This document shows positions 20,834 through 55,852 of a stretch of DNA of 64,000 nt, piece by piece; within the stretch, counting starts at the first letter, position 1; the number at the start of each line of letters is the position of its first letter. The DNA lies in contig NZ_VAVZ01000003.1 of NCBI RefSeq assembly GCF_005771525.1, forward strand, positions 577-64,576, given 5' to 3'. The translations under genes were made by a program, and so were the position numbers. This DNA comes from Nesterenkonia salmonea (GTDB lineage: Bacteria; Actinomycetota; Actinomycetes; Actinomycetales; Micrococcaceae). Below the pieces are notes generated by a model. That model saw only the letters and a list, made by a program, of their open reading frames with translations. It searched no databases and had not been told where the DNA came from.

Positions 20834-20900
20834 GGCTGCTCCCGACTGTCGGCGCGCTCTGCCTGCCCTGCTCCTGCGCCTCCTGGACCTACCTGCGCCA

Positions 20901-20963
20901 ACTGGCCGATTATGCCGCTAACTCAGCCTTAGATCGCCGCATTTAAGGGCAGAATCGGCCAGT
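20901..20963. repeat. Palindromic element D, upstream of the AbiEi-like gene
   Basis: ACTGGCCGATT and AATCGGCCAGT form a perfect 11-bp outer stem. An inner GCCTTA/TAAGG-C pairing lies inside. The first 17 bases (ACTGGCCGATTATGCCG) recur in inverted orientation in the palindrome at 22.1 kb, on the other side of the same gene. Confidence 0.65.
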
Positions 20964-21090
20964 AGACGATGGGGACGGGAGAGTACAGTGATTTGTTCCC
21001 TCCCGCGCCGTGTGAGAACGACACTCCGGCCACTGCACAGATGCGCACTAACGGGTGGTCTGCGCATGCAGGACGTGGCATCACTGAGGT

Positions 21091-22056
21091 ATGACACCCG
21101 AATCACACCGAACGTTTCACCGACGCCGCGGCCGGGACTATCCGCTGCCGACTCGTGGCATTCGCTACGGGGAGCTCACTGACGTTCTCTCCCGACGGGA
21201 TATCCGCCACGCTACCCATGGAGGCGAACTTCACGCTGTGTCGCACGGCATTTACATTCCCGCGTCCAAGTCTGTTCTTGGAGCCCCTCTTGCCACTCTC
21301 GAAGCGTTGTGCCACGGGACACCACACCTAGTGAGCCACCACACGGCAGCTGCATTGTGGGGGATCATCGATGCCGCACCTACACCCCCGTACCACCTGA
21401 CGGCACCACCAGAAGGCTCACGTGTTAAGCGGCCCGATTTGGTGGAGTCTCACCGCACACATGTGCCGGAGGCGGATAGAACGGAGCTGCATCGGCTGCC
21501 GATCACGTCCCCGGCCAGAACCTGGGTGGATGTGGCACTCAGCTCCTCCGTACTTGAGGCACTCATCCTGGCTGATCGCTGTCGACGCCGGGGGCGTAAA
21601 GAATTCGGCGAGGATCCCCAAGCGTTGGCGTCCGCCGCTGAGCTGGCCGCAGCACTGACCAGACGCGGGAAACCCCGCGGGATCAGGAACGCCCGCGCGG
21701 CCCTGCAGTTGAGCCGGGACCGAGTGGATTCACCCCAGGAGACGCGGCTGCGTTACGCCATGGCTCAAGCAGGCCTTCCCGAACCTGAGGTGAACGCTTG
21801 GATCTACAACGCCCACGGCTGGGCTGTAGTGCAGCCGGATATGAGCATCCGGGAGTATCGCCTCGCCATCCAGTATGAAGGGTGGGAATTCCACACAGAC
21901 GATGATCAGATGGTCAGGGACATCCAGCGTCAAGAACTCACAGAGGCGTTGGGCTGGGTCGAGGTTCGAATTACTCGGGAGCACATGAGGAACCAGTGCG
22001 GACGGGCTGTCGAGAAGATTGTCCGCACCCTGCGACGACAGGGGTGGCCCGGGTGA
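21091..22056 (+). CDS. AbiEi-like / DUF559-type protein
   Basis: 321 residues. The N-terminal part (YGELTDVLSRRDIRHATHGGELHAVSHGIYI) is a degenerate winged-helix like type IV antitoxin AbiEi. The middle SHHTAAALWGI and LPITSPARTWVDVAL are typical of this actinobacterial group. The C-terminal 100 residues (DSPQETRLRYAM, VVQPDMSIREYRLAIQYEGW) look like a DUF559/VSR-type nuclease fold with acidic residues. No toxin partner (AbiEii) is adjacent, and related palindromes lie on both sides. Nuclease function is inferred. Confidence 0.7.
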   Translation: MTPESHRTFHRRRGRDYPLPTRGIRYGELTDVLSRRDIRHATHGGELHAVSHGIYIPASKSVLGAPLATLEALCHGTPHLVSHHTAAALWGIIDAAPTPPYHLTAPPEGSRVKRPDLVESHRTHVPEADRTELHRLPITSPARTWVDVALSSSVLEALILADRCRRRGRKEFGEDPQALASAAELAAALTRRGKPRGIRNARAALQLSRDRVDSPQETRLRYAMAQAGLPEPEVNAWIYNAHGWAVVQPDMSIREYRLAIQYEGWEFHTDDDQMVRDIQRQELTEALGWVEVRITREHMRNQCGRAVEKIVRTLRRQGWPG

Positions 22057-22083
22057 AGCCCAACTTTCATAACCCAGGCGTCT

Positions 22084-22147
22084 AGTGGCCGAAAATGCCG
22101 TTCCAGGAGGGCCCTGAGGACCTCTTGGAACGGCATAATCGGCCAGT
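22084..22147. terminator. Palindromic element E, long bidirectional hairpin
   Basis: Arms 22084-22105 and 22126-22147 pair over 22 positions with three mismatches; an inner GAGG/CCTC extends the stem. It separates the convergent AbiEi-like and gltA genes and can end both. It shares ACTGGCCGATTATGCCG (minus strand) with element D at 20.9 kb. Confidence 0.75.
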
Positions 22148-22174
22148 CAGCGAAAGGGAGAGCCAGGAGGCGGC

Positions 22175-43211: not shown

Positions 43212-45071
43212 TTAACGCCCTGCTACACCCCCACCTCCGCCGAAGGAACCGGCTGAGAATCCCCCGGGCGACATGCTCCCCGATGCCGAACCGGAACCCT
43301 GATGAGAGGCCCCTACGGTACCGGGCATAGTGGCGACCAAAACCACCCAACTGCCGGTGGGCAGCCCGGGTAGCGGCTCAGTCTCAGCGCGGGCATCCAT
43401 CAGTTGCGTCCATTTCTCGTGATCGCCGAATGCCATGGCGTAAGGCAGTTGTTCGGTGATTTCTTCAGGCGATAAGTCAGTTTCTTCAGAAGCGCCCACT
43501 GTGACCGACTGTGACAGCTGGAGTCCGCGGAGTTGCTCATAGTGGACCCGTCCTTCCGCAGTACGGCGATTGGACGCCCGGATGGTGCCCGCCCAGCCCA
43601 GCCCCACTGCAGCAGCTGCGACTGCGACAACGAGGAGAAGGAAGTTCAAGGATGTGGGCATTCCGAATCCGAAGCTCAACAGGGGGGTCGCTAAGACCAG
43701 GAACAGCACCGCGCCGCCAATCCAGGCCCAGAGGCTTCCCACACCGCCAACGTTCCGGGCGAGGAGGCCCCGTGCATTGAACTGGTCCACCGCCTTTTTC
43801 TGCGCGGCATGCGCGGCCTCAGTGAAGCCTTCGTCCAGCTCCGATACTCGCACCGGTTCCTGCTCGGGGAAGAGCGCCTCAAGCACCTCTCGCTCCCATG
43901 TGATGAGTGCCGAGGTGTCTTTGTTGGTGGGTGTGAGCAGCCAGTCTGTTCCGGCGTCGTCGTCCTCTCCATCAGTCTTCTGGGTGGTTTCTTCCATGGT
44001 GAGGTAGCCGCGCGCAGCCAGATCAGTGACCGTCAGGCCCGTGAAGTCTGCCTGCGGGACGTGGGGCGTCTTGTGCCAGAGCAGTGCTGCCTCAAAGGGA
44101 CGGAGACCATCCGGGACGGCGTTACGGGGCACGGCGGGCGGCTCGTGACGCAGCGGTGCGGTCGGCTCGAGCGTTCCCCCGGTGGGCACAGAGCCCTGCG
44201 GCAGGTTGGGGAAGTGCTCATCGGCACCGCGGCGCCGCCGGACCGTGACCACTGCAGCGGCCAACGCCAGGATTGCAGCAGCGACGGCCCACCAGTAAGT
44301 GAGCACTGAGTCCCAGAGCCGGTCCGTGGCGGGGGCGACCCTTTCTGCGAACTGCTCGGCCGCTGTGGGCTCGGCGTAGATCGGCTCGACACCTGCGAAC
44401 GTGTCCGCCGCGACCTGCAGGTCCACCGCCTGCCAACCCCCTGGCGGCAGATTTTCGGCAGTCGCGGTGACGGTGTCACCCTCTGTGGTGATCTCGCAGG
44501 AGACACCGTCGTCCAGATCTGGGTCCTCCCCCTGCCAACAGGCTCCCTCCTGCACATCAACCGGGAAATTCACCTCCGTGGTGACGCGGTCCATGGGGAC
44601 ATCGGCGTGAGGACCGGCAGTGACCCACTCCAGGCCGTTGGGGTCGACCGCTCCGTGCACGGTATAGCTGAGCTGGTAGGTCTGCACCCCGGTGCTCGTC
44701 TGATCCGAACCATCCGGTGCTCCCAGCGTGAGCTCCAGCTCCCTTCGGCTCTCATTCGTCTCAACAACCTCAGCTGGTGCTCCACTGGGGCTGCTGAGTG
44801 AGAACTCCTGGTAGTCGAACTGCCGGCGGCCGTCGTCGGTGGGCTGTTCGGTGCTCAGGGAACGGTAGAAGCCCAATCCGTCACGCTCACCAAAGTCCCA
44901 GTCGTAGGTCTCCTCCACATGGAGCACGCCATCTTCATCGACTTCGATCTCAATAGTGAGGTCGCGGACGACGTCGTCCTCGGGGTCACCGGAAGCGAGG
45001 GCGGGTGCGGCCGTGAGCCACACGATGCCGGAGACTACTGCGGAGGCTGCTGCGAGACGGAGAGTGAACAT
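43212..45071 (-). CDS. DUF2207 exported/membrane protein
   Basis: 619 residues. Sec signal (AASAVVSGIVWLTAAPALAS), N-terminal beta-rich DUF2207 domain (DLTIEIEVDEDGVLHVEETY, GFYRSL, LSYTVHGAV), helix near 260, a cytoplasmic region, two more helices (AWIGGAVLFLVLATPLLSFG and the following segment) and the typical Gly/Ser ending GFSAGSFGGGGGVAGR. Function unknown in this family. TAGGGT 6 bases before the ATG predicts a leaderless mRNA. Confidence 0.87.
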   Translation of the reverse strand: MFTLRLAAASAVVSGIVWLTAAPALASGDPEDDVVRDLTIEIEVDEDGVLHVEETYDWDFGERDGLGFYRSLSTEQPTDDGRRQFDYQEFSLSSPSGAPAEVVETNESRRELELTLGAPDGSDQTSTGVQTYQLSYTVHGAVDPNGLEWVTAGPHADVPMDRVTTEVNFPVDVQEGACWQGEDPDLDDGVSCEITTEGDTVTATAENLPPGGWQAVDLQVAADTFAGVEPIYAEPTAAEQFAERVAPATDRLWDSVLTYWWAVAAAILALAAAVVTVRRRRGADEHFPNLPQGSVPTGGTLEPTAPLRHEPPAVPRNAVPDGLRPFEAALLWHKTPHVPQADFTGLTVTDLAARGYLTMEETTQKTDGEDDDAGTDWLLTPTNKDTSALITWEREVLEALFPEQEPVRVSELDEGFTEAAHAAQKKAVDQFNARGLLARNVGGVGSLWAWIGGAVLFLVLATPLLSFGFGMPTSLNFLLLVVAVAAAAVGLGWAGTIRASNRRTAEGRVHYEQLRGLQLSQSVTVGASEETDLSPEEITEQLPYAMAFGDHEKWTQLMDARAETEPLPGLPTGSWVVLVATMPGTVGASHQGSGSASGSMSPGGFSAGSFGGGGGVAGR

Positions 45072-45077
45072 AATTTC

Positions 45078-45083
45078 ACCCTA
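45078..45083 (-). promoter_or_regulatory. -10 element, leaderless DUF2207 gene
   Basis: TAGGGT on the minus strand, 6 bases before the DUF2207 ATG. Confidence 0.4.
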
Positions 45084-45147
45084 GAGAGTGACAGCCTGCG
45101 GACGCATCCGCCTCGGAGAGTATCTTGGCACGCGAATTCAGGGGGAT

Positions 45148-45197
45148 GTTGGGATGTCAGGCGCCTATAGGATGCTGAATTCCCAACGGGCGCCTGA
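45148..45197. repeat. Pseudoknot-topology intergenic element, copy A
   Basis: Two interleaved stems: GTTGGGA (45148-45154) with TCCCAAC (45181-45187), and TCAGGCGCC (45157-45165) with GGCGCCTGA (45189-45197). Both are perfect. The order 5'-1, 5'-2, 3'-1, 3'-2 is that of an H-type pseudoknot. The central bases CTATAGGATGCTGA are shared with copy B at 48.4 kb (CTATAAGAAGCTGA). Confidence 0.7.
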
Positions 45198-45285
45198 TAA
45201 TGCGTGGGGACACGAGCGGGTCGGGGTCGTGAGCGGAGCTTACCCGGCGCGCAGCCGGGGCTGGTGCGGGGACGGGTGCACCCCG

Positions 45286-46278
45286 CTAGGCGTAGAAGAA
45301 CCGCACGGCGTGAAAGAAGACCGGCGCCGCGAAGCACAGCGAGTCCAGCCGGTCCATGATGCCGCCATGGCCGGGGATGGTGGAACCGAAGTCTTTGATG
45401 CCGCGGTCGCGCTTGATCGCGGACATCACCAGCCCGCCGGCAAAGCCCATCACACAGGAGATTAACGCCAGCAGAGCCGCCATCAGCGGGGTGAACGGCG
45501 TGATCCACCACAGAGCTGCACCCAGCGCAGTCGCCGAGAGCACACCCCCAATGAACCCCTCCCAGGTCTTATTGGGACTCACACTGGGCGCAATCGGGTG
45601 CTTGCCCAAGGTCTTACCCCACACGTACTGCAACACATCGGAGCCCTGGACCACGATCAGCAGGAATAGCAGCAGATGCGCCCCGGTGGCCCCGCCATCC
45701 CCTGGTGAGGAACCCTCAGCGGCTTCGCGGCCAAGCTCCATAGCCACCGGCAGCTGGAGCAGCGCCGGGGCATGGCTGATCGCGTAGACACACACCATCA
45801 ACGCCCACTGGATGGTCGCGGCTCGCTGCAGGAAACCCTTGGTCTGGCCGGCGAGCGCGTTCCGTGCCGGCAGGAAAAGGAAGGCGTACACCGGGATGAA
45901 CACACTGAACATCCCGTACCAGTGCTCCCACAGGAACCAGTAGTGCACCGCAGGGATGATGAACACCAGCCACACCAGGACCTTGTGGTCACCCCGTCCG
46001 GTGGGGGAAATGGTGATGAACTCCCGCAGCGCCAGGAGCGACAGCAGCAGAAACAGCAGAATGGTGACCGTCTCACCGGCAGCCAGTACCGCCCCAATGA
46101 GTGCGACCATCAGCCACCAGGCGTTGATGCGCTGTTTCAGGTTGCCGATGGTGCTGGTCGGGCCTATCCGGCGGCCCAACAACCAGGCAATCGCACTGGC
46201 CAGAACAAGGACGACGACGACGCCGCCGAGCAGTTTCAGTGCCGAGGAATCCAGCAGGCCTAGGCCCCAGTCACTCAT
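45286..46278 (-). CDS. cdsA: Phosphatidate cytidylyltransferase
   Basis: 330 residues, about eight helices. The CDP-diacylglycerol synthase signature is complete near the C-terminus: SAIKRDRGIKDFGSTIPGHG followed by GIMDRLD, preceded by SPNKTWEGFIGG. It makes CDP-diacylglycerol from phosphatidate and CTP. Its start overlaps the plsC-like gene by 4 bases, so it is the last step of a three-gene phospholipid unit. This is probably a second, specialised copy, since actinobacteria usually carry another cdsA near frr/pyrH. Confidence 0.9.
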   Translation of the reverse strand: MSDWGLGLLDSSALKLLGGVVVVLVLASAIAWLLGRRIGPTSTIGNLKQRINAWWLMVALIGAVLAAGETVTILLFLLLSLLALREFITISPTGRGDHKVLVWLVFIIPAVHYWFLWEHWYGMFSVFIPVYAFLFLPARNALAGQTKGFLQRAATIQWALMVCVYAISHAPALLQLPVAMELGREAAEGSSPGDGGATGAHLLLFLLIVVQGSDVLQYVWGKTLGKHPIAPSVSPNKTWEGFIGGVLSATALGAALWWITPFTPLMAALLALISCVMGFAGGLVMSAIKRDRGIKDFGSTIPGHGGIMDRLDSLCFAAPVFFHAVRFFYA

Positions 46279-47009
46279 GGGCGGTCCCCACCCGGTGGGC
46301 TGCCGAGGGCGGGGGCTGCGTCGTCGTCATCCCCATGGTCGATGGTGTCCTGGTGTTCGGCGAGGCAGTCCACCAGGACCCGGCGTGCGCGGGCCAGAAA
46401 ACTGGGCTGTTCCTCGTCCGGGGCCACGTGGAGTGGATCGCAGAAAACAACGGTCGAAAGATGCGGCACCGGAACCACCTCACCCTTGGGCAGGATGCGT
46501 CCAAGGTTGGCCAGGGTCACGGGCACCACCGGCACTTCAGGATGGCGGTTCGCCAATTTGTAGAGTCCGCCGTGGAACTGAGCGATCGATTCCCCGTCGC
46601 CGCGAGTGCCCTCCGGGAAGATGATCAGCGAATCCCCCGCAGCGAGCACCTCCGCCATACCTGCGATCTGGCCTTTCGGGCTCACTCCAGAATCTGATGC
46701 TCGCTGACGAGTGCGGCTCGAGCCGTGCCGGTCCACCAAATAGGCGTTGAAGATCTGCTCGGCGAAGGCTTTGCGCAGCCCCGTTCCCCAGTAGTCCTTG
46801 GCCGCCACGGGCCGGGCCCGCTTTTGCAGGTCAGCGGGCAGGGCGGCCCAGATGGTGAGGAAGTCCAGATGGCTGCTGTGATTCGCATAGTAGATGGCCT
46901 GCTCGGGCAGCTGTGGTGTGGGATCTCCGTGTGCGGTGACCACACGAGCACCGGCGAATGCGCTAATGAGCTTGGCGAGGCTGCGGCGGGACAGACCGGC
47001 CACGTTCAT
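46275..47009 (-). CDS. 1-acylglycerol-3-phosphate acyltransferase (PlsC-like)
   Basis: 244 residues from ATG 47009, whose ATGA overlaps the stop of the upstream gene. The acyltransferase motifs NHSSHLD (H-x4-D, near residue 41) and FPEGTR (near 135) are present, with GGLYKLANRHPEVPVVPV downstream. It would acylate lysophosphatidate, feeding CdsA. The C-terminus carries an Asp run (DHGDDDDA). Confidence 0.88.
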   Translation of the reverse strand: MNVAGLSRRSLAKLISAFAGARVVTAHGDPTPQLPEQAIYYANHSSHLDFLTIWAALPADLQKRARPVAAKDYWGTGLRKAFAEQIFNAYLVDRHGSSRTRQRASDSGVSPKGQIAGMAEVLAAGDSLIIFPEGTRGDGESIAQFHGGLYKLANRHPEVPVVPVTLANLGRILPKGEVVPVPHLSTVVFCDPLHVAPDEEQPSFLARARRVLVDCLAEHQDTIDHGDDDDAAPALGSPPGGDRP

Positions 47010-47701
47010 GAGGGCACGTCCCGAGCTCGCGCGCGCAGCACGGCACTGACCCGGCGCAGTCGCCGCATACAAGTAAACAGCGAGCCCAGCGCGATGAGCG
47101 TCAGTGTGCAGAGCAGGACCCATCCGGGGGTCCACGGCAGCCAGGGTTCAGCGATGGCGCCCAGGATGCCAACCATGAGCACCCACATGCGGTGGGGTTT
47201 GGCCAGGGGCCCGTCGAAGAAGTTCCCGGTGCCCAGGGCCGCGCCGAGACTTCGGATATACGCCGTGAGGACCGCGAGGGTGGCAGCAAGGAACCCCAGT
47301 ACGACTCCGAGGTCGACCCGGCCGGCTGTCACCAGTCCTGCGGTCGCCAGGCCGGCGGCACCTAGAAAGAGCACATCAGAGATTCGGTCGGGCAGTTCGT
47401 TGTAGATATCGCCCACCGGTGAGCTCATCCCCTTCTCGACCGCCAGCATGCCGTCAAGCATGTTCAGCAGCAGACGCAGAGGGATGCAGAGCGCCGCGAC
47501 TGCGAGCAGGACTGCCCGTCCGGGCTCATCTTCGGTGTGAGCTGACCAGATAAGCGCGGCTGCGCCGATAGCGGCAAAGAGCACTGAGCCGACAGAGATT
47601 TGGTTCGGGGTGAGTTTCGCGGCCGCGAGAAGGTCAGCAGCCTTGGCCGCCCACCGACTGCTGCGCTGCGGGATCGCCCGCCGGTCCGTTCCCTGGCTCA
47701 T
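47006..47701 (-). CDS. Variant CDP-alcohol phosphatidyltransferase
   Basis: 231 residues, membrane protein. The motif reads N-M-L-D-G-M-L-A-V followed by G-D-I-Y-N-E-L-P-D-R-I-S-D. The family Arg after A is Val and the third Asp is Asn. I recall the same N-E/D-L-P-D-R variant in proteobacterial clusters where it sits with PlsC and CdsA. The product alcohol is unknown; the altered motif suggests a different acceptor or a changed role. Confidence 0.8.
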   Translation of the reverse strand: MSQGTDRRAIPQRSSRWAAKAADLLAAAKLTPNQISVGSVLFAAIGAAALIWSAHTEDEPGRAVLLAVAALCIPLRLLLNMLDGMLAVEKGMSSPVGDIYNELPDRISDVLFLGAAGLATAGLVTAGRVDLGVVLGFLAATLAVLTAYIRSLGAALGTGNFFDGPLAKPHRMWVLMVGILGAIAEPWLPWTPGWVLLCTLTLIALGSLFTCMRRLRRVSAVLRARARDVPS

Positions 47702-47805
47702 GTGCTGTGTCCATTCCCTCGGGGTACCCCATACGCTAGTACGTCTTGGTCAGAACCGTCAGTATCTGGCCCGCCTTTCCTCTCGATGCTCCGAAGGCTG
47801 CGCGC

Positions 47806-47811
47806 TAGAGT
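47806..47811 (+). promoter_or_regulatory. -10 element, leaderless membrane-protein gene
   Basis: TAGAGT, 7 bases before ATG 47819. Confidence 0.45.
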
Positions 47812-47818
47812 CTTGGGT

Positions 47819-48412
47819 ATGGGAATTCGGCGCGCACAAGGCTCCAACGGCGCATTTCGGGACCACGGTGTTGCCGCCGCCTGGGGATTCGCGGAAGCTA
47901 CGTTCTTCTTTGTTGTTCCCGATGTGTGGACCTCCTGGGTGGGGCTGCGCCGACCCAAACGAGCTTTGGGCACTACCGTCTCCGCACTCGGTGGGGCACT
48001 GGCAGGTGGTGCGGTGACGTCCTGGTGGGGGCGTAAGATCCCGGCGCAGGCCTCGCACTCAGCTCTGGTGAAAGTTCCAGCGATCACCGACTCCATGGTG
48101 CACCAGGTGGAGCAGGAAGTGGCCGAATCCGGCCATGCCTCGCTTATGCGGGGCCCGACCCGTGGTGTTCCCTATAAGCTCTACGCCCGCGCCTCCGGGC
48201 TGCAGCGGAAGTCGCTGCTGAACTTCCTGGCCTGGAGTGTGCCCGGCCGGCTGATTCGGTTTGTTGCGGTGACACTGGCGGCCTCCGGGCTCGCCGCCCT
48301 GACCCGCCGTATGTTCCCCAATGTCTCTGACAAACGCGTCTCCGCTGTGTTCTGGACGTGTTGGGGTGGGTTCTACGCCTGGTTCATCCCCACAATGTCA
48401 CGCCGACGCTGA
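47819..48412 (+). CDS. Membrane protein with YqaA/VTT-like segments
   Basis: 197 residues from ATG 47819. It contains WGFAEATFFFVVPDVWTSW, VSALGGALAGGAVTSWWGRK, then a soluble stretch and two helices near the end (IRFVAVTLAASGLAALTRRM, VFWTCWGGFYAWFIP). The first part recalls YqaA/SNARE-associated proteins but I cannot assign it firmly. Divergent from the phospholipid operon with a 117-base gap and possibly functionally linked to it. Confidence 0.6.
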   Translation: MGIRRAQGSNGAFRDHGVAAAWGFAEATFFFVVPDVWTSWVGLRRPKRALGTTVSALGGALAGGAVTSWWGRKIPAQASHSALVKVPAITDSMVHQVEQEVAESGHASLMRGPTRGVPYKLYARASGLQRKSLLNFLAWSVPGRLIRFVAVTLAASGLAALTRRMFPNVSDKRVSAVFWTCWGGFYAWFIPTMSRRR

Positions 48413-48448
48413 CCACCTCTCCCAGCGATCCCCCGTGAATTCCAGGGC

Positions 48449-48501
48449 GTTGTTGGGTTCTCAGGCCGCTATAAGAAGCTGATTTCTCAACAACGACCTG
48501 A
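48449..48501. repeat. Pseudoknot-topology intergenic element, copy B
   Basis: Stem 1 GTTGTTGGG (48449-48457) with CTCAACAAC (48486-48494), one G-U. Stem 2 TCAGG (48461-48465) with CCTGA (48497-48501), extendable across one mismatch. Same interleaved order as copy A at 45.1 kb, with changed bases on both sides of stem 1 (compensatory). Confidence 0.65.
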
Positions 48502-48609
48502 AGTTTGCCCGGGGCGAGGGAGCAGCCCCTTGAAAAACCCTTCCCGCCAACACAGAAACATAGTTGCAATACGCAACAAGTTCGTGTTCTGCGTGGCAGA
48601 CTGGCACAC

Positions 48610-50697
48610 ATGGCTGAATCCCTCTTCTCTGACCTGGACCGCTACGTCGCCCACCCACGGACCGCAGGACTGTCACTGAGCCCGGACGGCACCCGGCTGA
48701 TCACCACAGTGCAGACGCTGAACAAAAAGAGCAACGGCTACGTCACCTCACTCTGGGAAGTTGATCCCGCCGGTGAACGCCCTGCCCGCCGCCTGACCCG
48801 CAGCGCCAAGGGGGAAACTGGTCCTACTTTCGCCGCCAACGGCGACCTCTACTTCACCTCGGCACGGCCCGATGAGGACGGGGAGGATGAACGCAGCGCA
48901 CTGTGGTGCCTGCCCGCTGCCGGCGGCGAGGCACGTGTCATCAACCGGCGGTCCGGCGGCGTGTCATCGGTTGTGACCGCAGCTGATGCTGATGTGGTAG
49001 CGGTCACGGCACCCCTGCTTCCTGGTGCCGCCGATGAGGATTCCCAGCAGAGCCTGCACAAGACCCGTCAGGACAGCTCAGTGAAAGCCATCCTGCACTC
49101 CGGCTACCCCATACGGTACTGGGACCACGACCTCGGCCCCGCACGGCCCCATGGGTTCATCCTCGACGCGCAGACCCCGGATCACGAGGACGCCCCCGTA
49201 ACTTCTGAGCCGGTACGCCCAAAGCTACGCCAGATCACCGAAGGCCTCGGCAGTCTCTTCGAGGGCACCATGCACCTCAGCCCAGACGGCTCGCAGGCTC
49301 TCATCGGCGTCACGGTGCCTGAGGCGAAGACCGATCGCCACTCGGCCATTGCGCTGGTGGACACCTCCACCGGAGAACGACGCATGCTCGTCGATGAGCC
49401 GGAGATGACCTTCTCCCCTGGCCCTATCAGTCCCGACGGCACGAAGGCTGCGGTGGTCGGCTCACCGAAGCCCACCCCCAGCAGCGCGATTGCGCCCCAG
49501 CTTTATGTGGTGGACCTCGGCAGCGGAGCGGCCACTCCCCTGGCGGAGGGTCTTGACCTGTGGCTGAATCCGGCCTCTTCCCGCCCGTGGATCGATGACC
49601 AGCGGCTACTCGCCGTCGCAGACTACAACGGCCGCGGGGCCATGTTTATCGTGGACGTCACCTCTGGCGAGACCACTGAGGTGCCGGTCGAAGATGCCGT
49701 CTACTCGCAAGCGTTCCCAACCCCGGACGGCACCACGGCCTTCGCGGTGCGCAGCAGCTACGCGTTCCCTGATGAGGTGGTGCGTATTGACCTCAGAAGC
49801 GGCTCTGTCACCCGGTTGCAGAATCCCACAGAGCGTCCGGAACTGCCCGGCACCTTGGAGGATGTTCAGACCGAGACCGGTGACGGCGTCGTCGTGCGCG
49901 GGTGGTTGTGCCTACCGGAGCAGGCCTCACCGGCGGATCCGGCGCCGCTGCTGCTGTGGATCCACGGCGGGCCGGTGAGCTCATGGAATGCGTGGACCTG
50001 GCGGTGGAACCCGTGGCTTGCAGTGGAGAAGGGCTACGCGGTGCTGCTGCCGGACCCGGCGCTGTCCACCGGCTATGGCCAGGAGTTTGTCCAGCGGGGA
50101 TGGAACTCTTGGGGCGAAGAGCCCTACACCGACCTGCTGAGCATCACTGACGCGGTGGAGGCCCGCGAGGACATCGACGCGTCCCGGACCGCAGCGATGG
50201 GCGGCTCGTTCGGCGGGTACATGGCGAATTGGGTCGCCGGGCACACCGACCGGTTCAAGGCCATTGTCACCCATGCCAGCCTGTGGGCGCTGGACCAGTT
50301 CGGCCCCACGACCGATATGTCACCTTTCTGGCGGCGGCAGATTGACCAGACCATGATGGACCGGCATTCACCGCATGACTTCATCAGCGAGATTGTGACC
50401 CCCATGCTGGTCATCCACGGGGATAAGGACTACCGGGTGCCCATCGGGGAAGGGCTGCGGCTGTGGTTCGAACTGCTGGCCGACTCCGGTCTGCCCGCCG
50501 ATGAGAACGGCGAGACGCTGCACCGTTTCCTCTACTTCCCGGATGAGAATCACTGGATCCTGTCTCCGCAGCACACCAAGGTCTGGTACCAGGTGATCTT
50601 CGCCTTCCTCGCCGAACATGTGCTCGGAGTGCAGGAAGAGCTTCCCCAGGAACTCGGCCTGAGCGCGCCGAAGAGCACAGAGAACGACGACGCTTGA
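48610..50697 (+). CDS. S9-family prolyl oligopeptidase-like peptidase
   Basis: 695 residues from ATG 48610. The N-terminal beta-propeller with repeated SPDGT motifs (LSLSPDGTRL, LSPDGSQAL, SPDGTKAA, PTPDGTTAF) is followed by an alpha/beta-hydrolase domain. Catalytic triad: Ser533 in GGSFGGYM, Asp607 in HGDKDYRVP, His648 in DENHWI. No signal peptide, so cytoplasmic; likely removes dipeptides or acylated residues. No clear Shine-Dalgarno; CAGACT 7 bases upstream is a weak leaderless -10. Confidence 0.92.
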   Translation: MAESLFSDLDRYVAHPRTAGLSLSPDGTRLITTVQTLNKKSNGYVTSLWEVDPAGERPARRLTRSAKGETGPTFAANGDLYFTSARPDEDGEDERSALWCLPAAGGEARVINRRSGGVSSVVTAADADVVAVTAPLLPGAADEDSQQSLHKTRQDSSVKAILHSGYPIRYWDHDLGPARPHGFILDAQTPDHEDAPVTSEPVRPKLRQITEGLGSLFEGTMHLSPDGSQALIGVTVPEAKTDRHSAIALVDTSTGERRMLVDEPEMTFSPGPISPDGTKAAVVGSPKPTPSSAIAPQLYVVDLGSGAATPLAEGLDLWLNPASSRPWIDDQRLLAVADYNGRGAMFIVDVTSGETTEVPVEDAVYSQAFPTPDGTTAFAVRSSYAFPDEVVRIDLRSGSVTRLQNPTERPELPGTLEDVQTETGDGVVVRGWLCLPEQASPADPAPLLLWIHGGPVSSWNAWTWRWNPWLAVEKGYAVLLPDPALSTGYGQEFVQRGWNSWGEEPYTDLLSITDAVEAREDIDASRTAAMGGSFGGYMANWVAGHTDRFKAIVTHASLWALDQFGPTTDMSPFWRRQIDQTMMDRHSPHDFISEIVTPMLVIHGDKDYRVPIGEGLRLWFELLADSGLPADENGETLHRFLYFPDENHWILSPQHTKVWYQVIFAFLAEHVLGVQEELPQELGLSAPKSTENDDA

Positions 50698-50728
50698 ACG
50701 AGCCCTGATCACCTGAACTGGGCTGGTG

Positions 50729-51028
50729 TCACCGCCTGACCTCGAAGCCGATGGACGGCAGAGTCTGCAGTTGTTCTTCGGTGGCCTCACGGGTGTCCAC
50801 TGAGCTGACTTCAGCCCGCTTGGGCCCCTTAGCGCACCAGCTGATGAAGGAGTCGACAGCGGGACCGTCACCACCGATCAGCAGTTCCACGGCACCGTCG
50901 GAGGCATTGCGGACCCACCCAATGAGCTCCAGATCATCAGCCTGACGTTTGGCTGAGTTCCGGTAGTTTACGCCCTGGACGGTGCCTGTGACATGAACCG
51001 AGGTGCCTACGCTGAAGTGAGGTTCCAT
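50729..51028 (-). CDS. Acylphosphatase
   Basis: 99 residues from ATG 51028; a TTG at 51040 is the alternative. The family motif VHVTGTVQGVNYRNSAKRQA gives the catalytic Arg and GWVRNASDGAVEL the Asn. It hydrolyses acyl phosphates. The usual phenylalanine before Arg is Tyr. It stands tail-to-tail with the S9 peptidase and 41 bases from the amidohydrolase stop. Confidence 0.9.
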   Translation of the reverse strand: MEPHFSVGTSVHVTGTVQGVNYRNSAKRQADDLELIGWVRNASDGAVELLIGGDGPAVDSFISWCAKGPKRAEVSSVDTREATEEQLQTLPSIGFEVRR

Positions 51029-51069
51029 GACCCCAGTCAAGCAAAGCTAGGCGCTGCTGTGAAGGGCAG

Positions 51070-52257
51070 TTACCAGCGGGAGCGTACAGAACCGGTCCTG
51101 CTGGAGGTGTCATAGGCGTAGACCTCTTTGCCCTCGATCCAGGTGCGCAGCGCGCGGTTGCGGGTATCCAGCGGGTCTCCCTCCCACAGAGTGAGGTCCG
51201 CATCCTTGCCTGGTTCGATCGAGCCGATTCGGTCCGCGACACCGAGGACTTCGGCCGGGTTGATAGTGACGGCTTTGAGGGCCTCATCCGGGTCCATGCC
51301 CTCTTTCACCGCCAGGGCCGCCTGGTTGATGAGGAAGTCGATGGGGACCACGGGGTGATCGGTGATGATCGAGACCTTGACTCCGGCCCGGGAAAGGACG
51401 CCAGGCGCGCGCGGGCTGCGCTCCCGGACTTCCACCTTGGACCGCGACACCATCATCGGGCCGTAGAGGACGGGAATCCCACGAGCGGCGATCCGGTCAG
51501 CAATCAGATGAGCCTCGGTTCCGTGGTCGAGCACCAGGTCGTAGCCGAACTCGTCAGCGATACGCAGGGCGGTCACAATGTCATCAGCACGGTGGCAGTG
51601 CTGCCGCCACGGGATCTCACGCGCTAGCACCATGGCCAGAGCTTCGGAGACCAGATCTGCGGGGCGGTCCTCAGGGTCTTTGGCTGCCCAATGCTGGGCC
51701 TCAGTGAAAGCTTTGCGGGCAGCGAAGGCCGTCCCCAAACGGGTGCTGGGCGTCTTCTTCTGGTCGCCATAGACTCTCTTGGGGTTCTCACCGAGGGCAG
51801 CCTTCAACCCAGAAGGAGAACGCAGGACCATATCGTCGATGACCGCACCATGGGTCTTGATCGCCACCGTCAAGCCACCGATGACGTTGGCTGAGCCCGG
51901 ATTGACGTTGACCGTGGTGATGCCGTGGGCGAGCGCGTCGTCGAACCCGATCTCCACAGGGTTGATGGCGTCGATGGCCCGAACTGCTGCAGTGACCGGG
52001 TCGGTGGCCTCATTGAAGTCCGCCCCGGCCCAGCCCTCGCCCTGCTCGTGAACTCCTAAGTGGACATGGGCATCGATGAGCCCCGGAACTATCCACCCAC
52101 CGGCGGCGTCTATCACCTCATGCTCCGCAGGGGTTTCAACCTCGGGACCAATTTCAGTGATCTTCCCGTCGGTGACCACCACTGCACCGTCAAAGGGGGC
52201 ATCCGTCACCGGGACCACATGGGCATTCGTCACAATATAGTTTCCTGAAGCAACCAT
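51070..52257 (-). CDS. Amidohydrolase family protein (imidazolonepropionase-like)
   Basis: 395 residues. Metal-dependent hydrolase features: PGLIDAHVHLG (His-x-His) near residue 57, WRQHCHRADDIVTAL, LVLDHGTEAHL, and the late metal Asp in SIITDHPVVP. The C-terminal GSIEPGKDADLTLWEGDPLD closes the beta-sandwich. Cytoplasmic; substrate unknown. TAGAGT 6 bases before the ATG suggests leaderless expression. Confidence 0.87.
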   Translation of the reverse strand: MVASGNYIVTNAHVVPVTDAPFDGAVVVTDGKITEIGPEVETPAEHEVIDAAGGWIVPGLIDAHVHLGVHEQGEGWAGADFNEATDPVTAAVRAIDAINPVEIGFDDALAHGITTVNVNPGSANVIGGLTVAIKTHGAVIDDMVLRSPSGLKAALGENPKRVYGDQKKTPSTRLGTAFAARKAFTEAQHWAAKDPEDRPADLVSEALAMVLAREIPWRQHCHRADDIVTALRIADEFGYDLVLDHGTEAHLIADRIAARGIPVLYGPMMVSRSKVEVRERSPRAPGVLSRAGVKVSIITDHPVVPIDFLINQAALAVKEGMDPDEALKAVTINPAEVLGVADRIGSIEPGKDADLTLWEGDPLDTRNRALRTWIEGKEVYAYDTSSRTGSVRSRW

Positions 52258-52263
52258 GCGTCC

Positions 52264-52269
52264 ACTCTA
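52264..52269 (-). promoter_or_regulatory. -10 element, leaderless amidohydrolase gene
   Basis: TAGAGT on the minus strand, 6 bases before the amidohydrolase ATG. Confidence 0.45.
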
Positions 52270-52317
52270 ACGGAGCCGCCTTGCTACGTCTTCTGCGGAT
52301 CAGTAACACCTTCGCCA

Positions 52318-52344
52318 TTCTCAATAACTTGGACTTATTGTGAA
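52318..52344. promoter_or_regulatory. Operator-like inverted repeat before the CDF gene
   Basis: TTCTCAATAA, seven bases, TTATTGTGAA: 9 of 10 arm positions match. It ends 3 bases before the ATG and covers a TATTGT hexamer, so a bound repressor would block transcription. The A/T-rich arms resemble operators of ArsR/SmtB metal sensors; the regulator is not in the window. Confidence 0.6.
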
Positions 52345-52347
52345 TAC

Positions 52348-53307
52348 ATGGGATTCGGCCACAGTCATTCGGGCAGTCGCGCTACCGCCGGCACACATGG
52401 CACCGGGCAGCGACGTCGTCTAGTAATCGCCTGCGTCATTACTCTGAGCATCGTTGCCGTTCAAGGGATTGGGGCGTGGCTCACCGGTTCCCTGGCCTTG
52501 CTGACGGACGCTGTTCACTCGCTTGCGGACAGCATTGGACTAGTGATGGCGGTCATAGCTGCAAGTCTGATGTATCGCGGCGTCAGCGGCACACGCACCT
52601 GGGGATACCGCCGTGTGGAGATCATTGCCGCAGCCGCACAGGCAGGTCTGCTGGCGGGAATCGGCACATACGCTGCTGTCGAAGGGATCTCCCGACTCTA
52701 CGAGCCCCAAGAGGTACTGCACGTGGAGCTGCTACTCTTCGGCGCGGCAGGACTTTTCGGAAACATCATCTCGCTCCTGGTACTAGCACCCCGGCGCACG
52801 GAAAACCTGAACCTGCGAGCCGCCTTCCTTGAGGTCTCCGCCGATGCGCTTGGATCGTTGGGAGTCATGGTGGCCGCAGTGGTTATCTGGCTCACCAGCT
52901 GGCATCAGGCGGATGCTGTGGTGGCCCTTCTCATAGCGGCGATGATCGTGCCACGAGCGATACTGCTCCTGCGGGAAACTGGCCGAGTACTGTTGGAATT
53001 TACCCCACGCGGCCTGGATCTCGTTGAGGTACGTCGGCACATCATGGCGGTTGACCATGTCCAGGACGTCCACGATCTGCATGCCTCTACTGTGGCTACG
53101 GGACTGCCCGTCGTATCAGCGCATGTGGTGGTGGATGAGTCGTGCTTCACCAGCGGTTGCGCCCCGGACAAGCTGGCCGAACTGAGCACCTGCCTCTCTG
53201 ACCACTTCACTGTGTCGATTACACACTCGACTTTCCAGCTGGAGACCGCCGAACGCGCTTCCAATGAGCGCCTCACCCCCGGTGGGCAACCCTGCACACG
53301 ATTCTGA
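52348..53307 (+). CDS. Cation diffusion facilitator metal exporter
   Basis: 319 residues. The His-rich N-terminus (GFGHSHSGSR) precedes six helices. The CDF signature is GSLALLTDAVHSLADSIGLVMAV with metal ligands Asp and His, and a second pair in SADALGSLGVMVAAVVIW and WHQADAV. The C-terminal cytoplasmic domain has VDHVQDVHDLHASTVATG. Exports Zn2+ or a similar ion in exchange for protons. No Shine-Dalgarno; probably leaderless under the adjacent operator. Confidence 0.92.
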   Translation: MGFGHSHSGSRATAGTHGTGQRRRLVIACVITLSIVAVQGIGAWLTGSLALLTDAVHSLADSIGLVMAVIAASLMYRGVSGTRTWGYRRVEIIAAAAQAGLLAGIGTYAAVEGISRLYEPQEVLHVELLLFGAAGLFGNIISLLVLAPRRTENLNLRAAFLEVSADALGSLGVMVAAVVIWLTSWHQADAVVALLIAAMIVPRAILLLRETGRVLLEFTPRGLDLVEVRRHIMAVDHVQDVHDLHASTVATGLPVVSAHVVVDESCFTSGCAPDKLAELSTCLSDHFTVSITHSTFQLETAERASNERLTPGGQPCTRF

Positions 53308-53420
53308 ATGGGGGTTGCAGTCCTATCCGAACCTGATACGGTCCTGGTGGCGGCGCCAGCGTAGGCGCACCTTCTTTGGGGTACGACTGCGGCGGGCGTC
53401 GTTGATCGACCGTGCAACCC
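53286..53420 (+). promoter_or_regulatory. Mutually exclusive hairpins before ectD
   Basis: GGGTTGCA (53312-53319) can pair with GCAACCC upstream (53286-53292, inside the CDF gene end) or with TGCAACCC downstream (53413-53420), just before the ectD ribosome site. The enclosed 93 bases contain further GC-rich hairpins. The first fold could end CDF transcription; the second would structure the ectD leader. Pairings are seen; regulation is inferred. Confidence 0.35.
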
Positions 53421-53441
53421 AGACACAAGGAGGTGTGGCGC

Positions 53442-54341
53442 ATGACCACCGTTGCCCCCGAAGTGACAGACCTGTATCCGACCCGCAAGGGTGAGAATCG
53501 CGTTATCCCACGGCAGGACGAGGTCGTCCAGGGCGCAGCCGATCAGGGCCCCTTGAACGCCCATACGTTGGAGGATTTTGATCAGCTCGGGTACCTGACG
53601 ATCAACCAGCTCATCACAGATGATGAACTGGAACTGTTCCGCAATGAACTCCAGCGCCTCGCAAAAGACCCTGAGGTCAAAGCTGAGCGGCACACGGTGG
53701 TGGAAGCCAGCTCGAACGAAGTGCGTTCAATCTTCGATGTTCACAAAACCAACGAGATCTTTCGGAAGATCGCCCAGGATCCGCGCATTGTGGACAGGGC
53801 ACGGCAGATTCTCGGCTCGGAGGTCTACATCCATCAGAGCCGGATCAACTACAAGCCTGGCTTTGTGGGCAAAGAGTTCACATGGCATTCCGATTTTGAG
53901 ACCTGGCATGCCGAGGACGGAATGCCGAAGCCGCGCGCTGTGAGCATCTCGATCTCCCTGACGGACAACTACTCCTTCAATGGACCGTTGATGATCATGC
54001 CCGGTTCCCATAAGCACTATGTCTGCGCGGCTGGGGAAACCCCTGAGAACAACCACGAACAGTCGCTCATCATGCAGGGCGCAGGTGTGCCGGACCCACA
54101 GACTTTGGCTGAATTCGCAGACAGGTTCGGCATTGACGTGCTGGAGGGTCCCGCCGGTGGTGCGATCATGTTTGATTCCAACTGCATGCACGCCTCCAAT
54201 GGGAACGTCACGCCGTATCCGCGCTCCAACGTGTTTATCGTCTACAACTCAGTGGAGAACACCCTCCAGGAGCCCTTTGCAGCGCCGACGCGGCGGCCTG
54301 AGTTCCTGGGAAGCAGGGACTTTACACCGGTGGGTGATTGA
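53442..54341 (+). CDS. ectD: Ectoine hydroxylase
   Basis: 299 residues from ATG 53442 with AAGGAGG 8 bases upstream. The EctD signature FTWHSDFETWHAEDGMP is present; Fe(II) ligands His149, Asp151 and His250 (CMHASNGN). 2-oxoglutarate-dependent conversion of ectoine to 5-hydroxyectoine, an osmolyte. ectABC are not adjacent, so the gene depends on ectoine made elsewhere or imported. Confidence 0.93.
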   Translation: MTTVAPEVTDLYPTRKGENRVIPRQDEVVQGAADQGPLNAHTLEDFDQLGYLTINQLITDDELELFRNELQRLAKDPEVKAERHTVVEASSNEVRSIFDVHKTNEIFRKIAQDPRIVDRARQILGSEVYIHQSRINYKPGFVGKEFTWHSDFETWHAEDGMPKPRAVSISISLTDNYSFNGPLMIMPGSHKHYVCAAGETPENNHEQSLIMQGAGVPDPQTLAEFADRFGIDVLEGPAGGAIMFDSNCMHASNGNVTPYPRSNVFIVYNSVENTLQEPFAAPTRRPEFLGSRDFTPVGD

Positions 54342-54372
54342 GGAGCCTCGCGAGTGGGCTGGCTGAGGTTGG

Positions 54373-54705
54373 TCAGTGTGGGCGCTGCAGGGCGATGATG
54401 GCGTCCATATCATCATCGGGCGCGGTTTTGTTCCGGTCTGTTGCCCCGCAGGCTGTGCAGCGATGAATGAGGATGTAGCCCTTCTTGCCGGAGTAGTCGA
54501 CACCGACCGGTTTCATCGGCGCGCCACATTGGGCGGCCCGATCCCCTGGCAGCTCATCCACATGACGGGACCACAAGCAGTGCGGGCAATGATTGCGATA
54601 GCTGCCCCCGGTATGCCGCGCGATCTTGCCGCCGCACTGGATGCAGCTAAACCCAGTATTTTCTACGTTGCGCCTGCCTAGGGCGGCATCACTGCCGGAG
54701 CTCAC
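54373..54705 (-). CDS. RNHCP-domain zinc-ribbon protein
   Basis: 110 residues from GTG 54705, selected because GGAGG lies 6 bases upstream inside the trmH 3' end; the gene overlaps trmH by 17 bases. Motifs: FSCIQCGGKI, GGSYRNHCPHCLWSRHVD (which names the family) and LIHRCTACGATDRNKTAPDD. Three Cys-x2-Cys pairs probably bind zinc. Function unknown; translation coupled to the RNA methyltransferase. Confidence 0.85.
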   Translation of the reverse strand: MSSGSDAALGRRNVENTGFSCIQCGGKIARHTGGSYRNHCPHCLWSRHVDELPGDRAAQCGAPMKPVGVDYSGKKGYILIHRCTACGATDRNKTAPDDDMDAIIALQRPH

Positions 54706-55690
54706 CAGGAGCCTCCACGCCTGACACCGGTGCCAGGTCCTGCGCTGTGGCTGTGGCATAGAGACACAGAGTTGCTGCAGTAGAGACGTTCAGCGACTCC
54801 GCCCGGCCATAGATGGGAATCGAGACTGCGGCATCAGCCAGAGCGAGCTCATGCGCGCTGAGTCCTTGAGCCTCATTGCCGAACAGCCACAGTGTCCGAC
54901 CAGCGGCGCTGACTCGCCGCCCTGCGGTCGAAGGCGAACTAAGCTCATGGAGTGTCAGATCCGCCTGACCCGCGGCGGCCAGCACCTGAACTCCGTTTGG
55001 CTGAACAAAACGGGCATATTCAGCGATGTCTATACCGGTGAATATCGGCAGATGGAAATGCGACCCCGCTGCAGCCCGCACAACTTTTGGGGACCATGGG
55101 TCCGCTGAGCCGGCAGCGAGCACTACGAGCTCGGCCCCTGCAGCATCAGCGGCCCGGATGATGGTTCCCACATTGCCCGGATCTTGAACCCGAACAACAC
55201 CTGCTATGAGGGAGACAGGTGAAGCTACCGTAGCCGACTCAAGCGACCGAAAGTCAGCATCTCCGTCGGGGATGCGCGAGACCGCAACTAAACCCTGGGA
55301 GGTCTCAGCGTCCCCCATGGCGGCCAGTACTTCCGGTGTCGCTTCGCGGAGAAACGGTCGGGCATCACGCGGCAGATCGATGGTGGGGTCGAAGAGCACT
55401 CCACGCATACGGTCCAGAAGTGCCTCGACATCCGGGAATCTCTGGACCGCCGCGGCGTCGAAAAACAGTGCATCCAGCTGGGGAAGTCTGGGGGCCTCGG
55501 GGGCCCCGGGAAGTGCCACAGCGTCGTCGGGTTCATATCTGGCCAACCAGACTTTCAGCGCCTCCCGCACCGGCTGAGGGCCCTCAGCCAGAAATAAGCG
55601 CTGCTTCTTCCGTCCGCCTCGTGTGGCTAATGCAGCGACACGCTTGACGCGCTCACTGCGGGGGTTGTCCATGAGATATTCGTCAGTCAC
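54689..55690 (-). CDS. TrmH/SpoU-family RNA 2'-O-methyltransferase
   Basis: 333 residues. The substrate-binding N-terminal part (RVAALATRGGRKKQRLFLAE) is followed by the SPOUT domain: GNVGTIIRAADAAGAELVVL (motif 1), LWLFGNEAQGLSAHE (motif 2) and ESLNVSTAATLCLYAT (motif 3) forming the trefoil-knot AdoMet site. Methylates a ribose in rRNA or tRNA. It follows rplT, as is usual in actinobacteria, but pheST, which normally comes next, is absent here. Confidence 0.9.
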   Translation of the reverse strand: MTDEYLMDNPRSERVKRVAALATRGGRKKQRLFLAEGPQPVREALKVWLARYEPDDAVALPGAPEAPRLPQLDALFFDAAAVQRFPDVEALLDRMRGVLFDPTIDLPRDARPFLREATPEVLAAMGDAETSQGLVAVSRIPDGDADFRSLESATVASPVSLIAGVVRVQDPGNVGTIIRAADAAGAELVVLAAGSADPWSPKVVRAAAGSHFHLPIFTGIDIAEYARFVQPNGVQVLAAAGQADLTLHELSSPSTAGRRVSAAGRTLWLFGNEAQGLSAHELALADAAVSIPIYGRAESLNVSTAATLCLYATATAQDLAPVSGVEAPGELRQ

Positions 55691-55806
55691 TAGGTCATTC
55701 TCTCAGGCCCCAGTGCACAATCGGATAGGACGCTGCAGAAGGCCTCCTTAAGAGTCCTATCGAGTCTCGCACAAACACCGGAAATATCGGCTCAGCTGGC
55801 ACAGGC

Positions 55807-55852
55807 GATGGGATGAAGAGTGGCGCGAGTGCTGGTGTCCCAACGAGCGCGC
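55807..55852. repeat. Pseudoknot-topology intergenic element, copy C
   Basis: Stem 1 GATGGGAT (55807-55814) with GTCCCAAC (55837-55844), one mismatch and one G-U. Stem 2 GCGCG (55823-55827) with CGCGC (55848-55852). It shares CCCAACG-x-GCGC-x2-GATAA with copy A at 45.1 kb. It lies between trmH and rplT, next to the rplT terminator. Weaker than copies A and B. Confidence 0.45.

Follow-up and report, generated by a model that had tools for sequence, protein, structure and literature searches.

What are the palindromic sequences that recur between genes in Nesterenkonia salmonea, and do they belong to a larger system? The question arises from a 64,000 nucleotide stretch of the genome (contig NZ_VAVZ01000003.1 of assembly GCF_005771525.1, positions 577 to 64,576; “the window”), in which an earlier note had described three copies (A, B and C) of one element with two interleaved stems. 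We find that A and B are homologous copies of a DNA palindrome that is dispersed in this and related genomes. Pairs of such palindromes also flank a gene for a protein with an AbiEi-like N-terminal region and a probable Vsr-like nuclease domain. C is not a member of the family. Our preferred explanation, to which we assign a probability of roughly 0.6, is that A and B are solo copies of the palindrome of a mobile system in which a nuclease replaces the tyrosine transposase. Its arrangement resembles that of REPtrons, which combine repetitive extragenic palindromic (REP) sequences with a REP-associated tyrosine transposase (RAYT, or TnpA-REP).

Two of the three sites belong to a palindrome family

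Copies A and B share 79% identity over 58 bases (E = 4.8e-9), indicating that they are homologous. Both are imperfect palindromes. A aligns to its own reverse complement with 67% identity over 78 bases (E = 1e-6) and B with 65% over 68 bases (E = 6e-4), and 21 and 20 of the 31 dyad positions pair, respectively. On the + strand, both fold better than shuffled sequences (z = -4.5 for A and -3.5 for B). A covariance model was built from seven copies in the N. salmonea genome, A and B themselves among them. With filters off, it identified only A (E = 2.5e-19) and B (E = 2.5e-18) in the window, each on both strands, and the next-best place had an E-value of 1.7.

C was excluded from the family on four grounds. 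It had no match to the covariance model at E-values up to 10, shows no folding advantage over shuffled sequences (z = +1.1, with 180 of 200 shuffles as good), has no dyad centre with at least 15 of 31 pairs, and matches A over just 28 bases (E = 0.045). In addition, no match to C was detected at E = 0.05 among the 70 palindromes of the 35 matched units described below. Thus, the idea of one shared element holds for A and B, on the grounds of homology, folding and the model, and was dropped for C. As to the placement outside coding sequence, A and B are outside the genes called with our codon-usage script, and C is between two long reading frames. We also noted a dyad with 20 of 31 pairs at position 55742, in the gap between C and a - strand reading frame starting at 55690. 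It has no match among the same 70 palindromes.

The covariance model located at least 15 places in the N. salmonea genome, all on both strands and eight of them new relative to the training copies, confirming a dispersed repeat family rather than a single terminator. Two of these places flank a gene, and we refer to this arrangement as a unit. With a threshold of E = 0.1, the model matched at least 16 of the 30 Nesterenkonia genomes; these counts are lower bounds, as at most 150 preliminary candidates were scored per genome. An exact pattern, which fits 40 of the 61 sites used to build it, was scanned against 84,980 species, each represented by one genome, and returned 34 stretches, all in five Nesterenkonia species. 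The same kind of scan of the viral_contigs dataset returned 35 stretches, none of which is a relative.

Anatomy of the palindrome

We collected 65 TCAGG-type palindromes (“R1 sites”) from five genomes. Sixty-one have exactly 65 positions, and the four of other length were left out of the counts of pairing, covariation, distance and wobble. The palindrome consists of boxes of 5, 8, 5, 6, 5, 8 and 5 bases with 3-base spacers between them (5-3-8-3-5-3-6-3-5-3-8-3-5); the box sequences are referred to as its word. Pairing is frequent in box 1 (283/305), box 2 (394/488), box 3 (251/305) and the centre (149/183), and is at chance level in the nine spacer columns per arm (195/549). Six column pairs (6-59, 18-47, 24-41, 25-40, 30-35 and 31-34) co-vary across the 61 copies, with z of 3.0 to 4.7 in a within-genome permutation test that controls kinship of the copies only partly. 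On compensatory change between the arms, the earlier note is supported.

Nested and interleaved stems can both be drawn in A (each pairs 9 of 10 positions) and in B (8 of 10 each), as the earlier note had proposed for the interleaved form. The proposed conservation of that topology did not hold up: nested pairing is better in 23 of the 61 copies and pseudoknot pairing in four, with 34 ties. In the 32 copies with differing words, 274 of 320 positions pair when nested versus 214 of 320 as a pseudoknot. The pseudoknot is apparent because box 1 (TCAGG) recurs as box 3 within the same arm.

Box mismatches on the transcribed strand, counted at the 37 co-directional sites, include 33 G.U and 32 A.C, and we infer from this equality that DNA rather than RNA is under selection. 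The best covariance model strand is the transcribed strand at 17 of these 37 sites. At gathering scores, Rfam detected only two tRNAs in the window and no family at A, B or C. Selection on an RNA or cruciform structure had been suggested; with spacers at chance, equal mismatch classes and no Rfam family, the RNA or small-RNA part of this suggestion is not supported, and the cruciform option came close.

The median distance from an R1 site to a gene 3′ end is 25 bp (n = 64), and that to a 5′ end is 69 bp (n = 56), excluding four of the 65 sites that were called inside a gene. Some palindromes are located inside open reading frames and contain no stop codons (L103:3429-3493, L119:3561-3625, L099:3333-3397 and L067:1501-1565). 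By eye, the linkers that host these in-frame palindromes are those of a xanthine-dehydrogenase-like fusion and an ABC transporter ATPase fusion. L099 and L067 are related frames that carry different words in the same linker.

Palindrome pairs flank a class of genes

At three unrelated places, we identified palindrome pairs around homologous genes. In Nesterenkonia, the unit comprises palindrome, gene and palindrome, with the palindrome centres 1.2 to 1.6 kb apart. Homologues of the gene were detected with a profile in 28 of 30 Nesterenkonia genomes and were grouped into 90 places, some of which are fragments. Strong palindromes (at least 20 of 31 pairs) occur within 450 bp on both sides of the gene at 29 of 89 places (the one without a right flank was left out), compared with 0 of 139 control genes; control genes beside known R1 sites were excluded, a choice that favours the palindrome–gene link. 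Matched pairs, defined as at least 38/64 identical with an even dyad of at least 18, were found at 35 of the 90 places versus none of 28 scpB loci (best score 35/64) and none of 30 window tiles (best score 27/64). Locus L274 was omitted from the scpB control because it bears a unit. Palindromes had initially drawn attention to seven of the 90 genes, and when these are removed the counts are 25/82 for strong palindromes and 31/83 for matched pairs. Two methods of selecting matched pairs concur on 33 of the 35. Judging from the distances, palindrome spacing in these 35 units leaves room for one gene.

Units are not restricted to Nesterenkonia. We identified matched pairs at 23 of 47 places in other genera, including 17/29 within the family and 6/18 in further families of the order; the 47 places scored best among the loci returned and are not a random sample, and the controls are from Nesterenkonia. 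Most gene matches outside Nesterenkonia span the nuclease half only, and the AbiEi profile tests reported below are for Nesterenkonia proteins.

Distant units share a design although their words differ. A direct repeat (at least 6/7) at a lag of 19 occurs in 56 of the 140 arms of the 35 units versus 0.8 expected from shuffles, with the caveat that arms of related units are not independent. In many arms, box 1 is present twice, 19 bp apart, with box 2 between. Protein and palindrome divergence are correlated (Mantel r = 0.61; 0 of 5000 permutations), partly because orthologous units are included. The 12 closest protein pairs have a mean palindrome identity of 53/64; the value falls to 42 in the 15 pairs that follow and to about 26 below those.

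The unit protein is probably a DNA-cutting enzyme

The protein of the N. salmonea unit, located at G000:C53:47577-48674, has 366 amino acids and matches the Pfam families AbiEi_4 and DUF559/MTES_1575, in all cases below the cut-offs. Among five homologues, AbiEi_4 is matched in three and DUF559 or MTES_1575 in three, again below cut-off, and two have no Pfam match. AbiEi profiles of PADLOC match all five (best E-value per protein 1.4e-8 to 3.2e-6); including the product of a window gene described below, six proteins match AbiEi profiles. MTES_1575 is listed as a Vsr-type restriction endonuclease in PMC3710099. Three acidic residues of the protein class, D292, E303 and D305 in the numbering of the first row of A4, are invariant. 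NCBIfam has no family for the unit protein, a sequence search of the PDB returned no match, and PHROGs returned weak matches only.

The structure of one homologue was modelled. Its C-terminal domain, residues 200-370, reaches pLDDT (predicted local distance difference test) block values of 63-89, except in a loop near 315. A Foldseek search with this domain placed the homing endonuclease I-Bth0305I (3r3p) at rank 3 (E = 0.054, probability 1.00, target TM (template modelling) score 0.69), and Vsr (1vsr) was also matched (E = 0.35, probability 0.90). The two top rows are mitochondrial ribosome chains with TM scores of about 0.2 and were taken as noise. The profile matches and the modelled fold point to a protein with an AbiEi-like winged-helix region at the N-terminus and a Vsr-like nuclease domain at the C-terminus, which probably cuts DNA.

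Solo copies and differences between species

In two genomes tested, the word of the resident unit recurs as solo copies. In a genome from another genus of the family (G054), the word of the unit is present at 34 distinct places, two of which flank the gene. It occurs at no place in G097, G110 and G145, all of which have homologues of the gene. Two copies of the G054 word (G054:C1 3274362 and 3275535) are separated by 1.17 kb, as the two palindromes of a unit would be. Similarly, the G029 unit word was detected at seven places in G029 (two flank the gene), at two places in G001, where the matches are weaker, and at none in G011. The N. salmonea genome has a second unit, whose word (TTACCC) is partially matched at two other places in that genome.

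We compared the gap between scpB and rluB in 29 genomes; in one genome, rluB was not found. The gap is 1363 bp and contains a full unit in G003, whereas G006 has a solo copy of the TCATG word (R1 site L106) and G014 and G010 have solo copies of other words. G020 probably has a decayed solo copy, based on inspection by eye. The gap is at most 63 bp in 17 of the 29 genomes, including N. salmonea (G000) and G007, and is too short for the element. These differences support insertion or loss at one place. In G013 (L290), a long hairpin of another design, recognised by eye, is located where other species carry palindromes.

A likely unit inside the window

The window itself contains a likely unit, about 23 kb from copy A, that has another word and a distant AbiEi/Vsr-like gene (Table 1). 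Its two palindromes are 1.18 kb apart, share the word, and are 69% identical over 75 bases (E = 5e-5). In all, the window has 17 dyads that score at least 19, these two included. The gene matches AbiEi (E = 2.6e-14) and, both below cut-off, MTES_1575 (E = 1.6e-7) and DUF559 (E = 0.013). Alignment of its product to A4 with hhalign gave a probability of 94.8 (E = 5e-8) in the nuclease half. Plasmid records were scanned with this gene and four were matched, all under 60% identity. The gene had not been reported by the profile search, and the palindrome pair pointed to it, although this was noticed after the fact. For this reason, and because its palindromes fail one of the pair tests (see below), the window unit supports the rule without being a clean blind test.

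Table 1. Palindromes and unit gene in the 64,000 nucleotide window (window coordinates)
Feature	Position	Strand	Description
Left palindrome of the likely window unit	20896..20968	.	Word TGGCCGATTATGCCG; centre near 20931; odd dyad 21/31
Gene of the likely window unit	21091..22056	+	321 aa; AbiEi-like N-terminal half, MTES_1575/DUF559-like (Vsr-type) C-terminus
Right palindrome of the likely window unit	22080..22151	.	Centre near 22115; dyad 24/31
Copy A	45136..45200	.	Solo palindrome, word TCAGG / TTGTTGGGA / TCAG / CTATAG; 64 bp dyad, centre between 45167 and 45168
Copy B	48440..48504	.	Solo palindrome, same word as copy A; centre 48471/48472
Copy C of the earlier note	55807..55852	.	Non-member of the palindrome family

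A proposed nuclease-based mobile system and its alternatives

If A and B are solo copies from a mobile system, the AbiEi-like part of the protein would recognise the boxes of its own palindrome, and the nuclease part would cut either the palindrome or its vicinity, or the target. New intergenic places, often directly after stop codons, would then receive the palindrome, alone or together with the gene, through repair or recombination. Solo copies could form in two ways. The protein may move palindromes in trans, as has been proposed for RAYTs and REPs, or recombination between the flanking palindromes may delete the gene and leave one copy, as with solo long terminal repeats.

Several observations weigh against a mobile origin of this kind. 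No matched pair was detected at 55 of the 90 Nesterenkonia gene places or at 24 of the 47 in other genera, and the palindromes of the likely window unit fail the matched-pair test when it is based on even dyads (even dyad 13; best 22/64). The N-terminal half of the structure model has pLDDT below 50, and Foldseek returned no match at E = 0.001 or better for the C-terminal domain. For only 29 of 61 TCAGG-type sites is the best-matching unit in the same genome, which reflects the sharing of words between related species. In G003, solo copies L112, L113 and L127-L130 have a TCAGG/TCGGC word for which no unit was observed in G003; a gene may disappear before its repeats do.

Age and duplication patterns count on the same side. 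Most sites in the N. salmonea genome have a counterpart in G007, and are therefore old. In 10 pairs from these two genomes, 356 of 420 box positions are identical, compared with 114 of 180 spacer and 221 of 400 ungapped flank positions (orthology was based on flanking gene sizes, and two of 12 apparent pairs with an indel were left out). The boxes are thus under constraint or homogenised, which could mean a host function. Lastly, in a test of k from 3 to 9, neither the 35 units nor the 61 sites have an excess of target-site duplications of at least 5 bases over permuted flanks; at k = 4, duplications occur in three units versus a permuted maximum of two. This lack disfavours a classical transposase; the mechanisms that remain are copying by repair and recombination of the flanking palindromes with each other.

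Constraint on the boxes is also what would be expected if the AbiEi-like protein were an autoregulator that binds the upstream palindrome, the solo copies being scattered operators of its regulon. In Streptococcus agalactiae, AbiEi binds its promoter at two inverted repeats of 23 bp that are 3 bp apart (PMC3985639), which resembles the 24-12-24 plan here, and in the 35 units the centre of the upstream palindrome is 101-269 bp before the start of the gene match. Counting against operators are the second, matched palindrome behind the gene at 35 of the 88 places compared (two of 90 were left out), the greater proximity of sites to 3′ than to 5′ gene ends, the sites inside reading frames, and the differences between species at the same place. 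We consider this explanation unlikely, though the strongest of the alternatives.

A little less probable is a host element, such as a bidirectional terminator, a 3′ end stabiliser or a chromosome-organising site, that is functionally unrelated to the nuclease. It would fit the conserved boxes, the long hairpins that A and B can form, and the location of 45 of 64 adjoining gene 3′ ends within 31 bp of a site. Against it, a simple terminator scan of positions 44900-48700, limited to short loops, found five terminator-like sites, none of which overlaps A or B, and an intrinsic terminator was rejected for both on this basis. The lack of a G.U preference on the transcribed strand also speaks against a host element, and the words differ between units, which is unexpected if one general host protein recognises them.

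We give slightly less credence again to the idea that the palindromes are ends of an insertion sequence with a standard transposase, or miniature inverted-repeat transposable elements derived from it, and that the nuclease gene is a passenger. Dispersed copies whose presence varies between species are consistent with this. The absence of target-site duplications of 5 bases or more is not, and one gene class recurs between matched pairs, with words that change with the protein. In addition, the RAYT family PF01797, the one transposase family covered by the search, was not found in the N. salmonea genome. A structured RNA or small-RNA family with a pseudoknot, which compensatory changes and the foldability of A and B might suggest, is very improbable, and was rejected given the advantage of nested pairing and the equal G.U and A.C mismatches, with strand preference and Rfam likewise offering nothing in its favour.

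Comparison with known systems

The proposed nuclease-based mobile system has its closest parallel in REPtrons. In PMC3733652 and PMC6006769, these are described as dispersed intergenic palindromes, with a gene flanked by palindromes that are also found elsewhere in the genome, and with some copies in frame inside genes. We observed the same features, including a gene flanked by palindromes that also occur dispersed. The differences are in the protein, which is AbiEi-like plus a Vsr-like nuclease rather than an HUH tyrosine transposase, and in the palindrome, which is about 60 bp and has repeated boxes. Inspection of the 65 R1 sites revealed no GTAG (or GT[AG]G) foot at the hairpin; the edges are TCAGG...CCTGA or near variants. 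RAYT subclasses without a GTAG foot do exist, according to PMC6006769. PF01797 was detected in one of 30 Nesterenkonia genomes (G010), some of which may be incomplete as drafts, and in 5 of 14 control genomes. As it was not found in the N. salmonea genome itself, we rejected RAYT REPs as an explanation. The arrangement is thus REPtron-like, but the Y1 transposase and GTAG foot of the REP/RAYT class were not found.

Other known systems share single parts of the unit. AbiE, a type IV toxin-antitoxin system, is similar in the N-terminal AbiEi region, and binding to long inverted repeats is established for AbiEi (PMC3985639). It differs in that the C-terminus here is nuclease-like and the space between the palindromes fits one gene. 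I-Bth0305I, a Vsr-like homing endonuclease, is the best interpretable fold match of the modelled C-terminal domain, but the nuclease here is predicted to be joined to an AbiEi-like region, and its gene is flanked by palindromes. Among the matches listed in our literature search, which covered few subscription journals and preprints, there was no description of such a nuclease gene flanked by palindromic repeats.

The Rickettsia palindromic elements belong to the CGTC REPs. As in that class, the palindromes here are not tied to a tyrosine transposase; unlike in that class, a candidate flanked gene is present. We tentatively suggest, at slightly less than even odds, that the units constitute a new class of mobile element in Micrococcaceae and some related families. 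In this class, an AbiEi-like plus Vsr-like nuclease would be the dedicated mobiliser of long double-box palindromes, recognition word and repeat would co-evolve, and REP-like families would have formed around an enzyme unrelated to HUH transposases. Our caution reflects that the AbiEi half was examined within Nesterenkonia only. Palindromic repeats without a known transposase, such as the CGTC REPs, are presented as an open problem in PMC3733652. In the present case, a family of palindromes has pointed to a candidate enzyme from a different superfamily, and dozens of natural pairs of protein and word make recognition testable. The comparison also suggests a candidate role for a gene class whose profile, often in the nuclease half only, matches 135 of the 197 genomes sampled from the family (with Nesterenkonia counted in).

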